Positions 3,121 to 24,429 of a DNA stretch of 38,130 nucleotides are shown piece after piece (within the stretch, counting starts at the first letter, position 1; each line of letters begins with the position of its first letter). A program made the translations under genes and the position numbers. This DNA comes from Planctomicrobium piriforme. GTDB lineage: Bacteria > Planctomycetota > Planctomycetia > Pirellulales > UBA1268. The notes under the pieces were generated by a model. That model was given only the letters and a program-made list of their open reading frames with translations. It searched no databases and was not told the DNA's origin. The stretch is taken from positions 1 to 38,130 of the forward strand of contig CAMBPQ010000027.1 in NCBI GenBank assembly GCA_945869735.1. The letters run 5' to 3'.

Positions 3121-3252
3121 GATCACGGATGCCGATGAGAGGCCCCTGCGATGGGGATCTGTGAATCTGGTCAGGGCCTAACCGCAGCAGCCATAAGCAG
3201 TCGTCTCTTTGTGCGGTGGGCCTCTCATCGGCCTCCGGGATGCCCGGTGATC
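3121..3252 (+). ncRNA. ffs: Signal recognition particle RNA (4.5S type)
   Basis: This RNA binds Ffh and targets nascent membrane proteins to the translocon. Its conserved core is plain: GGTCAGG (3169-3175), a 10 nt apical segment, then AGCAGCC (3186-3192), with flanking CTG/CAG pairing. This is the spacing found in E. coli 4.5S RNA. A 15 bp helix, GCCGATGAGAGGCCC (3131-3145) with GGGCCTCTCATCGGC (3218-3232), closes the molecule, and GATCAC/GTGATC may extend it. The position directly upstream of dnaX matches the gene order known in Bacillus and relatives. The apical segment GCCTAACCGC is unusual: it gives a UAAC loop (URRC type) over a C-C mismatch instead of a GNRA loop. The core 3131-3232 is firm; the outer ends are approximate. 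Confidence 0.88.
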
Positions 3253-3275: not shown

Positions 3276-5180
3276 ATGACTGAACTCGGCGGATACCAGG
3301 TCGTCGCGCGACGCTACCGTCCGCAACTCTTCGCCGATCTCGTCGGCCAGGAACACGTGGCCCGCGGTCTCTCGGGGGCCATCGAGTCGGGGCGGATCGG
3401 GCACGCGTATCTCTTTACCGGGGCCCGCGGCGTCGGCAAGACGAGCGCGGCTCGGATCTACGCCAAGGCGCTCTCCTGCGAGCAGGGGCCCGCGGCGGAG
3501 CCGTGCAACGAGTGCGACTCCTGTCGGGCGATCGCGGCTGGCCAGGACGTCGATGTGGTCGAGATCGACGCCGCGAGCAATCGCGGCATCGACGAGATCC
3601 GCCAGCTGCGGCAGAACGTCGCCGTCCGCCCGGCGCGAGGCCGCTACAAGATTTACATCATCGACGAAGTGCACATGCTCACGCGTGAGGCCTTCAACGC
3701 GCTGCTCAAGACGCTGGAAGAGCCGCCGGCGCACGTGAAGTTTGTGCTCTGCACGACGGAGCCTGAAAAACTCCCGATCACGATTCTCTCGCGGTGCCAG
3801 CGGTTTGATTTCACGACCGTCGACACGCCGTCGATCGCCCGCAGGCTCGCGCAGATCGTGGAGGCTGAGGGGGCCGACGTGTCGGCTGAGGCGCTCAGGC
3901 TCATCGCGCGGCGGGCGGCTGGCAGCATGCGCGACAGCCAGTCGCTCCTGGAGCAGCTGCTCGGGTCGGCCAGCGGGAAGATCGGCGTCGATGATGTGCA
4001 TGCGCTGATCGGGACGGGCCGCGAGGAGCGGATCGGCGAACTCGTCGTCGCTCTGGCCGGGCGTGATGCGGCCCGCGCGCTAGCGGTACTCGACGCCTCG
4101 CTCGAGGGCGGAGCCGACGCCGGTGGCGTGCTCGAGCAACTCCTCGCCGCACTCCGCGACTGCCTGCTCGCGAGCGTGGGCTGCGAGGCGTCGCTCCTCA
4201 CGCAGTCGCAGGGGCTCGGCGTCGATCTGGCCGGCCTTGGCGGCCGATTAGGCACGGCGACACTCCTCGCCATGCTCCAGATTCTCGATCAGTCGCTGTC
4301 GCGGATGCGGACGAGCGGCCACGCCGCGATCCTCGCCGAGATGGCGGTGATCCGGCTGGCCACGCTCGAGGATCTGGAAAGCGTCGCGACGGCCATCGAT
4401 CGGCTCGCATCGCCGGCCGCCGCCGCGGCTGCTCCCTCCCGGCTGGCTGCACCGCGGCCCGCGGCCGCTCCCGCGCCAACGCCGCAAAAAAAAACGGCCG
4501 ACCTGATCGCGGAGAGCGCTGAGCCGGCGGTATCACCCCCCGCGGGTTTACCTTCAGCAGCGGCCACCCCCGCCGCCACCAGCCCTGCGGCCAGCGCTGC
4601 GGCCCAACGCTCCATCACAGAAGTGTCCAGTCCGGAGGCGGCGCCGCCTGGACTGCCGGAGGATGCCTCTGAGGCCTGGCAGGCGGCTGCTGGCGTGCTC
4701 GAGGGGCTCGCCAGTGATTTTGCCGCTGAGGTGACCGCAGCCGTATGGCGGGACGATGTGCTCGAGGTGTCGCTGCCGGCACATGCCGCGACGGCGGCCG
4801 CGTTTCTTCGGCGGCCAGAGATGGCGGCCTCGGTCGCCCGCGCGATTGAGTCGCTGGCGGGCCGCCGCGTTCGACACGCCGTTGTTCTCGCCGCGCCGGT
4901 CACGACCGTGGCCGCGGCCGCAGTCGGTACGGAACCGCAGTCGCGGCCCGCGCCGGCGCAGTCGCAGGCCGCGCTGCTCCGTGAGGCAGGCGAGCATCCG
5001 CTCGTCGCCCATGCCCGAACCGTCTTCGACGCGGCGATTCGCAAGGTCGAACCGCCCCGTTCTCGTGAGCCACGTCCCGCAGCGCCCGTGGCGGTAGCGG
5101 GTGGCCGCCCCGTGGAAGCCGACGACGGACGCTTCACTGAGGATGACCCCGAGACCGGCACGGAGGAAACCGATGGCTGA
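3276..5180 (+). CDS. dnaX: DNA polymerase III subunits gamma/tau
   Basis: 634 aa clamp-loader ATPase, cytoplasmic, part of the replisome. Walker A GARGVGKTS is at 49-57, zinc ligands are Cys68, 77, 80 and 83, a DEVHML Walker B is near 130, and an SRC sensor follows. After about residue 370 comes an Ala/Pro-rich linker and a tau-type C-terminal region. Codons 404-406 read CAA AAA AAA, part of nine consecutive A bases (4486-4494). The -1 frame stops at TGA 4520-4522 and the +1 frame at TGA 4504-4506, so slippage would give a 415 or 409 aa gamma-like product. It lies 23 bp behind the SRP RNA and its 3' end overlaps recR by 8 bp, suggesting one transcript. Confidence 0.97.
   Translation: MTELGGYQVVARRYRPQLFADLVGQEHVARGLSGAIESGRIGHAYLFTGARGVGKTSAARIYAKALSCEQGPAAEPCNECDSCRAIAAGQDVDVVEIDAASNRGIDEIRQLRQNVAVRPARGRYKIYIIDEVHMLTREAFNALLKTLEEPPAHVKFVLCTTEPEKLPITILSRCQRFDFTTVDTPSIARRLAQIVEAEGADVSAEALRLIARRAAGSMRDSQSLLEQLLGSASGKIGVDDVHALIGTGREERIGELVVALAGRDAARALAVLDASLEGGADAGGVLEQLLAALRDCLLASVGCEASLLTQSQGLGVDLAGLGGRLGTATLLAMLQILDQSLSRMRTSGHAAILAEMAVIRLATLEDLESVATAIDRLASPAAAAAAPSRLAAPRPAAAPAPTPQKKTADLIAESAEPAVSPPAGLPSAAATPAATSPAASAAAQRSITEVSSPEAAPPGLPEDASEAWQAAAGVLEGLASDFAAEVTAAVWRDDVLEVSLPAHAATAAAFLRRPEMAASVARAIESLAGRRVRHAVVLAAPVTTVAAAAVGTEPQSRPAPAQSQAALLREAGEHPLVAHARTVFDAAIRKVEPPRSREPRPAAPVAVAGGRPVEADDGRFTEDDPETGTEETDG
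4486..4494 (+). promoter_or_regulatory. A9 slippage site in dnaX (tau/gamma switch)
   Basis: Nine A bases in phase C-AA AAA AAA A-CG lie at the junction between the ATPase core and the linker of DnaX. Thermus thermophilus dnaX is known to use an A9 run for transcriptional slippage to make gamma, while E. coli uses an A-rich ribosomal frameshift. Both alternative frames close within about 30 nt, as expected if a truncated product is wanted. No clear upstream Shine-Dalgarno stimulator is seen, which favours RNA polymerase slippage. Confidence 0.6.
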
Positions 5181-5772
5181 AAAACGTGGTGCGATCGTCA
5201 GGCTCGTGGATGCGTTCGCCGATCTGCCTGGAATCGGCCGGCGCACGGCCGAACGTCTGGCGTATCACGTGCTCAACATGCCCCGCGAGCACGCGCTGCG
5301 GTTTGCGGACGCGATCCGGGCAGTCAAGGAGAACCTCCGGCCCTGCCGCACCTGTTTCAACCTCGCGGAGGGTGATGAGTGCGACATCTGCGCCGATCCG
5401 CGGCGTGACCAGGGGCTCTTGTGCGTGGTCGAGCAGGTCCGCGACCTCCTCGCGCTCGAGCAGGCGGGCAATTTTCGGGGGCTCTATCACGTGCTCCAGG
5501 GTCGGGTGGCACCGCTCGAAGGCAAGGGAGCCAACGGTCTCACGCTCGACGTGCTCGCGGCTCGGGTGAGCAGCGGGAAGTTTCGCGAGGTGATCCTCGG
5601 AACCACTCCGAACGTCGAGGGCGACGCCACCGCGCTCGTGGTCGCTCAGCGGCTCGAAGGCATGCCGGTGGAACTCACCCGTCTCGCCCGCGGCCTCACC
5701 GTGGGAGCGTCGCTCGAGCAGGCTAATCGCGAGATGCTCGTTGACGCCTTTGCCGGCCGCCGCAAGTACTGA
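5173..5772 (+). CDS. recR: Recombination mediator RecR
   Basis: 199 aa, normal for RecR, which works with RecO/RecF to load RecA at gapped DNA. A helix-hairpin-helix region (LPGIGRRTAERLAYH) is followed by a four-cysteine zinc finger (Cys58, 61, 70, 73) and a Toprim domain. The start at 5173 was chosen because MAEKRGAIVRLVDAF matches the family start and GGAGG lies a few bases upstream; longer in-frame starts run into dnaX. It overlaps the dnaX stop by 8 bp, so the two are translationally coupled. Confidence 0.96.
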   Translation: MAEKRGAIVRLVDAFADLPGIGRRTAERLAYHVLNMPREHALRFADAIRAVKENLRPCRTCFNLAEGDECDICADPRRDQGLLCVVEQVRDLLALEQAGNFRGLYHVLQGRVAPLEGKGANGLTLDVLAARVSSGKFREVILGTTPNVEGDATALVVAQRLEGMPVELTRLARGLTVGASLEQANREMLVDAFAGRRKY

Positions 5773-23522: not shown

Positions 23523-23963
23523 CTGGAGTGGATCGGGTGATCGCCGGCCACGGCCTGCCCTGCGGTTTCGGCCGCAGCGGTTGGCTATGGCGGGAGGAAA
23601 GTCCGGGCTCCACGGGGCACGATGGTGGGTAACGCCCACCGGCCGCAAGGTCAGGGACAGTGCCACAGAAAGCAAACCGCCGGCGGAGCCCGTCTCCGCA
23701 GGTAAGGGTGAAACGGTGAGGTAAGAGCTCACCAGCAGGCCGGGTGACCGGTCTGGCTCGGCAAACCCCATCGGGAGCAAGGCCAAGCAGGAAGAAGTTC
23801 GTTGCCGCTCCTTCGGGCGCGGCCGCGGCGCGAGGCGGCCCGTCTCGCACCCGCTTCCGGGTCGGCTGCTGGAGGCCCCGAGCAATCGGGGTCGTAGAGA
23901 AATGGTCGCCGGCCGTCGCGATTTCGCGGCGGCGACAGAACCCGGCTTACAGGTCCGCTCCAG
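23523..23963 (+). ncRNA. rnpB: RNase P RNA, class A
   Basis: This is the catalytic RNA that trims tRNA 5' ends, with RnpA (31941-32375). Universal core segments are seen in order: GAGGAAAGTCCGGGCTCC (23594-23611), ACAGAAA...AACCGCC, GGTAAGGGTGAAACGGTG with AAGAGCTCACCAG, AGGCCAAGCAG, TAGAGAAATGGTCG, and ACAGAACCCGGCTTA at the 3' end. A 12 bp P1 helix pairs CTGGAGTGGATC (23523-23534) with GGTCCGCTCCAG (23952-23963), which sets both ends. Its 3' end overlaps the stop of the convergent gene by 17 nt. Confidence 0.96.
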
Positions 23964-24429
23964 TTCGCTTTATCTTCGCCTCACCGGCGGCCGCCAGACC
24001 GGCGGCGTCGCGGCGGGCCTCGAGATCCCGCCCCTCCTGCTCATCAAGGAGTTTCACGAGTTTGGAGATGCACAGGGTGTTGACGCTCACCCGCATCTGT
24101 CCCGCCTCGCTTTTGAGCGTTTCATGGAGCGAACGGGGCATTCGCACGGTCACGACCCGCTGCGTCTCCCGCTGGGACTGACTGTCCTGCTGTCGGGCCC
24201 GCAGGCCGTCGAGCATCTCCCGGATCCGGGCGTACTGGGGGGAACACTCAAACCGCATCAGGGCGTCGGGGTCGGAAAATGTCCGCCGCACGATCCCTTC
24301 GACCCCCAGCACCTCGCGGAAGAAGACTACCCACTCCGGCTCCATGGCATGGAGCCGCTCGGCCACCTGCAGCACTGCGGTGGCGGCGTGGGCGTCGGCC
24401 TGGGGCGGGCGGGGGGTCTTGGTCGGCAT
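23947..24429 (-). CDS. Ribbon-helix-helix protein (HicB-antitoxin-like)
   Basis: 160 aa. The region near 95-140 (VVTVRMPRSLHETLKSEAG, then SVNTLCISKLVKLL) is a ribbon-helix-helix DNA-binding motif of the Arc/CopG/HicB type. The N-terminal half (EPEWVVFFREVLGVEGIVRR) is predicted helical and not recognised. No toxin gene is next to it, so it may be a free-standing regulator and not part of a toxin-antitoxin pair. The end overlaps the 3' end of rnpB in antisense. Confidence 0.65.
   Translation of the reverse strand: MPTKTPRPPQADAHAATAVLQVAERLHAMEPEWVVFFREVLGVEGIVRRTFSDPDALMRFECSPQYARIREMLDGLRARQQDSQSQRETQRVVTVRMPRSLHETLKSEAGQMRVSVNTLCISKLVKLLDEQEGRDLEARRDAAGLAAAGEAKIKRTGADL

Follow-up and report, generated by a model that had tools for sequence, protein, structure and literature searches.

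In Thermus thermophilus, dnaX is subject to programmed transcriptional slippage on a run of nine adenines (A9) (Larsen et al., 2000, as described in PMC1088944 and PMC4320859), and both of these accounts put the slippage at about 50%. In E. coli, according to the descriptions in PMC5009743 and PMC3711429, dnaX undergoes -1 programmed ribosomal frameshifting on A_AAA_AAG, with an upstream SD sequence and a 3' stem-loop. A two-ORF form of dnaX with A10 runs has been reported for 17 genes of 12 genera (Antonov et al., 2013, as summarized in PMC3711429). The need for a short DnaX in bacteria beyond E. coli and Thermus is an old open question. No description of dnaX slippage in Planctomycetota was found in the literature, most subscription papers lying outside the search.

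In our study, an A9 run was found in the dnaX gene of the window, that is, the whole stretch of 38,130 nucleotides that was analysed. This gene is the sole full dnaX in the genome, and its features are the following.

3276..5180, + strand: dnaX, the zero-frame ORF of the tau-like full-length product of 634 aa (TIGR02397 dnaX_nterm, 2e-127; PDB match to the E. coli DnaX gamma/tau chains 1jr3 and 3glh)
3276..4406, + strand: the stretch common to both predicted products, DnaX domains I-III, aa 1-377 (Pfam PF13177 at aa 25-181, PF22608 at aa 187-230 and PF12169 at aa 238-377)
4486..4494, + strand: the A9 candidate slippage run, codons 404-407, Q K K T (from the sequence; conserved in the dnaX genes of the class)
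4504..4506, + strand: TGA in the +1 frame, for A8 or A11 transcripts, predicted short product 409-410 aa (from the sequence and the Leu codon spelling of the family)
4520..4522, + strand: TGA in the -1 frame, for A10 transcripts or a -1 ribosomal shift, predicted short product 415 aa (from the sequence; -1 stops are nearer than background)
4495..5180, + strand: the tau-only part, linker and C-terminal domain, absent from the predicted short products (the zero frame is open to 5180)

The zero frame reads the region as CAA AAA AAA ACG, the run being the part between the first C and the last CG. Translation of the window showed that one A fewer (A8) gives a product of 409 aa, ending in QKK RPT before the stop, and that one A more (A10) gives a product of 415 aa, ending in QKK NGRPDRGER with the C-terminal peptide QKKNGRPDRGER. 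The initial annotation had given these positions of the A9 and both TGA codons and the lengths of 409, 415 and 634 aa, all of which were correct on re-reading of the sequence. It had also placed the ends of the short products just after the ATPase core. The end position held, and the part retained was found by Pfam to be domains I-III, not the core alone. The A9 lies 27 aa beyond the end of DnaX domain III (PF12169, aa 238-377), so the short products would retain domains I-III whole, like E. coli gamma. The C-terminal motif of tau, HPLV..A..F, was present in the full-length product and was recognized by eye in the DnaX of other planctomycetes as well. Around the gene, a small SRP RNA (3134-3232, Rfam) was present directly upstream of dnaX, and a RecR-like ORF (5174-5772, recognized by eye) directly overlapped the dnaX stop, with no ybaB between them. 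RNase P RNA was found further along the window (23525-23965, Rfam).

Runs of this length were rare in these genomes. The A9 was seen once in the window against 0.02 expected from dinucleotide shuffles, and the whole genome of 3.17 Mb contained four A9 words, both strands counted. Among 60 genomes of the window's family, many high-GC members contained one to four A9 each, and five (G008, G013, G020, G091, and G120) contained exactly one genome-wide; since dnaX carries one there and the strand matches, the lone A9 of these five is the dnaX run. Elsewhere in the same dnaX ORFs, no run of nine or more A's was found in about 255 kb.

The dnaX genes of relatives were found by tblastn with the core of the window protein, and the sequence was examined over 420 nt starting at about aa 340. 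In the window's family, 35 of the 36 dnaX genes with enough sequence contained A9 (32 genes) or A10 (3 genes), all 35 runs in phase 1, and the lone exception contained A8. According to the initial annotation, slippage would be refuted if close relatives had lost the run; the opposite was found, every fully covered family gene except the A8 one having kept it. When 20 further families (f2-f21) were added to the window's family, A9/A10 was present in 117 of 137 genes, A8 in one, and no run in 19. A further 40 genes of the class, from other families and more of f21, contained A9/A10 in 30 cases, which brought the class total to 147 of 177 dnaX genes with A9/A10 at the junction. The families were related to named groups at the level of DnaX identity, f15 being 77% identical to Aporhodopirellula and f17 79% identical to a Thermoguttaceae MAG, which makes Pirellulales the probable order. 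Outside the class the run was rare (4 of 44 genes), and its occurrence outside Planctomycetota was judged from 80 loci only. An artefact of a single assembly was ruled out, since dozens of assemblies made independently, single-contig genomes included, contain the run in frame. One contig, L050 (CAMDPK010000016.1), is labelled Candidatus Kuenenia stuttgartiensis; its DnaX was 68% identical to f21 and contained an A10 run, unlike the dnaX of Brocadiaceae (L052, L053), and the contig is probably misbinned.

On the DnaX tree, the run was gained or lost at least 13 times, and about 17% of the sampled class members contained no run, including L120, L128, L129, L137, L154, L155, L157, L192, and L203. 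No replacement slip site was evident in the run-less class members. These members may have lost gamma or may make it by proteolysis, as is described for Caulobacter in PMC5009743. The suggestion of the initial annotation that dual coding operates in this lineage thus applies to the window's family and most of the class, and not to this 17%, whose lack of a run or an obvious substitute indicates that gamma made by the slippage route is not indispensable.

The nucleotides of the run and the stops around it showed signs of selection. On a tree of DnaX cores, the run persisted through at least 14 changes of phase and at least 24 of length; phases 0, 1, and 2 all occurred, and tau remained in frame in nearly all genes despite the phase changes. 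Both off-frame stops were found within 45 nt in 123 of the 143 testable class genes, where about 16 would be expected, judging by other positions within these genes. By gene group, the counts were 34/35, 55/67, 9/11, and 25/30 against 1.3, 7.2, 2.6, and 4.5 expected, respectively. The +1 and -1 stops, when tested apart, were each nearer than background in all three gene groups; the window's family showed a looser placement of the -1 stop (median 25 nt) than of the +1 stop. The Lys codons of the run in the window's family were AAA in 60 of 60 cases, whereas only 27 of 269 Lys codons (10%) elsewhere in the same ORFs were AAA. At codon seven of the QKKTADL motif, Leu was spelled CTG, TTG, or CTA in 23 of 23 family genes; each of these codons forms a +1 stop together with the A that follows, even though the genes use CTC most often for Leu. 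Conservation of the flanking stops, proposed as a check in the initial annotation, was thus confirmed for both stops, down to synonymous codon choice. The homologues are related and the counts are not independent, so that p-values overstate independence and the argument rests on effect sizes. The comparison shows that selection keeps the run at 9-10 A's together with a stop in each of the other frames.

We propose that the A9 is most likely a Thermus-type programmed transcriptional slippage site that makes gamma and tau. RNA polymerase would at times realign on the A9 and produce mRNAs with 8, 10, 11, and other numbers of A's. The mRNAs with 9 or 12 A's would be read through to tau, whereas those of other run lengths would run into one of the two nearby TGA codons and yield a gamma-like DnaX some 409-415 aa long, which would retain domains I-III and lack the C-terminal part of tau. 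From the observed run and stops, and from the selection on them, we infer polymerase slippage, two proteins in some ratio and a role for gamma; dual coding of the window dnaX is strongly implied.

A few genes with the roles reversed bear on the direction of the shift. In L041 and L216 (Thermoguttaceae-like, with cores 79% identical), an A10 was found with the short product (gamma) in the zero frame, and tau requires one A fewer in L041 and one A more in L216. Orthologues that need shifts in opposite directions are a criterion for transcriptional realignment as set out in PMC3711429, and by that criterion the pair is a sign of such realignment. L263 and L108 (Myxococcales MAG) likewise encode the short product in the zero frame, with A10 at the junction, and need one A more for tau.

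The best surviving alternative is programmed -1 ribosomal frameshifting on A_AAA_AAA within the run, as in E. coli dnaX, by which a uniform transcript would give gamma. Any A9 holds an in-frame A_AAA_AAA, on which some -1 ribosomal shifting may take place. Moreover, -1 stops are enriched, and in the related family f23 an A7 goes together with a two-frame layout that is reversed and agrees with a -1 shift, so that the phylum probably does use ribosomal recoding of dnaX. For a -1 shift, however, the +1 stop is superfluous, yet the +1 stops were kept equally strongly, the synonymous level included, and seven A's would be enough where 9-10 were kept. The in-frame heptamer in the window is A_AAA_AAA followed by ACG, not the A_AAA_AAG of the E. 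coli type, which in E. coli is far shiftier than A_AAA_AAA according to the account in PMC5009743. The stimulators expected of such a site were also near background. No enrichment of internal SD-like sequences was found upstream, GGAG, GGAGG, or AGGAG being present within 18 nt in 7 of 36 family genes and in 5 of 69 and 0 of 11 genes of the other groups; the window contained no SD-like sequence, the run being preceded by cgccaacgccgc. No stable downstream stem-loop was found in the window (fold z 0.23), and the mean z of downstream folds was -0.07, -0.32, and -0.60 in the three groups, the family value of -0.07 standing against -0.39 in control windows. Family f29, with a likely ribosomal site, gave -2.6 in a similar test, so the fold test is able to detect such signals. 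Slippage is therefore favoured over ribosomal frameshifting because the +1 stop is kept at the synonymous level and the stimulators are near background, and we regard the -1 shift as unlikely for the window.

Sliding of the ribosome on the A-run in either direction (Koutmou type), with truncated products from a uniform mRNA, would exploit the kept stops in both frames and would make stimulators unnecessary. In an E. coli cell-free system, the sliding product was little at A9/A10 and robust from A11 (PMC4363877). The conserved length was 9 or 10, with 11 or longer never found among the 177 class genes, which is below that A11 threshold and makes sliding a very improbable source of the short product. 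The weakest alternative, that the gene is not recoded and a Lys-Lys motif of the linker is retained for the sake of the protein, with the A-run incidental, agrees with KK being always encoded by the run, but it is hardly credible and was rejected on codon spelling, AAA filling every Lys position of the run but only 10% of those in the rest of these high-GC ORFs, while the peptide varies with phase, KK is mostly gone too in relatives without the run, and the motif gives no role to the off-frame stops.

Programmed transcriptional slippage thus remains our reading of the window dnaX, and other families of the phylum were found to contain different arrangements. In f23 (L313-L332; G310, G397-G416), 17 of 19 genes carried an in-frame A_AAA_AAA immediately ahead of the stop that ends the zero frame at aa 377-402, and the tau part was in the -1 frame in most. 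We read f23 as a reversed dnaX in which tau would be made by -1 frameshifting on A_AAA_AAA. In f29 (L294-L312, L248-L257; G217, G247, G290, and others), the dnaX ORF ended at aa 388-401 and the C-terminal part of tau was in the -1 frame in most genes. The f29 genes contained no A-run; the site was C_CCN, one codon, TAG or TGA, and then a strong hairpin (mean z -2.6) with compensatory changes at 5 of 10 consensus pairs in a subset of 12 sequences. This site looks like an undescribed -1 ribosomal frameshift making tau. The DnaX of f41 (L258-L262, L266) was just 421-452 aa, with a ybaB-like ORF close behind, and no tau-like C-terminal domain or slip site was seen in it. On balance, we lean towards the view that gamma/tau dual coding of dnaX has been kept across the phylum while its mechanism was swapped. 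The mechanisms would be A9/A10 slippage in most of the window's class, where tau is in frame; an A10 two-ORF form with the roles reversed; a reversed -1 ribosomal shift on A_AAA_AAA in f23; and, in f29, a -1 shift on C_CCN, likewise reversed and free of A's, with a strong covarying hairpin.

The gene is essential and codon bias runs strongly against the A-run, yet the class as a whole has retained this costly, slippage-prone stretch along with two backup stops, which argues that the short form matters. Natural comparisons within the group are provided by several losses of the run and by the lineages in which it is reversed, and cultured run-bearing isolates exist, among them Aporhodopirellula aestuarii (L043, A10) and Gemmata sp. 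IIL30 (L047, A9).

In comparison with the known systems, the window dnaX is closest to that of Thermus, and the reference to Thermus in the initial annotation was correct as judged from the descriptions in PMC1088944 and PMC4320859. Both genes contain a continuous tau ORF, a sense-strand A9 and stops in both other frames, and in both the short product retains the clamp-loader part, as predicted here. The Thermus stops are described as two and sixteen codons downstream of the run. The two genes belong to different phyla, and the run lies at 64% of the ORF length here and at seven-eighths in Thermus, as given in PMC1088944; slippage has been demonstrated in Thermus, whereas for the window it is proposed from the sequence. 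With E. coli the window shares the same gene, a gamma and tau outcome (here a predicted one) and a similarly placed A-rich slip site, but it differs in the longer run, in the stops in both frames instead of the -1 frame only, and in having no enrichment of SD-like or stem-loop elements. The two-ORF dnaX genes, as far as PMC3711429 describes them, likewise contain poly-A at the gamma/tau junction that is read as transcriptional realignment; there tau needs the slip, whereas in the window tau is in the zero frame and gamma would need it. The two-ORF form does occur in a few relatives (L041, L216, and L263). The window dnaX is a new, well-supported member of a known recoding type.
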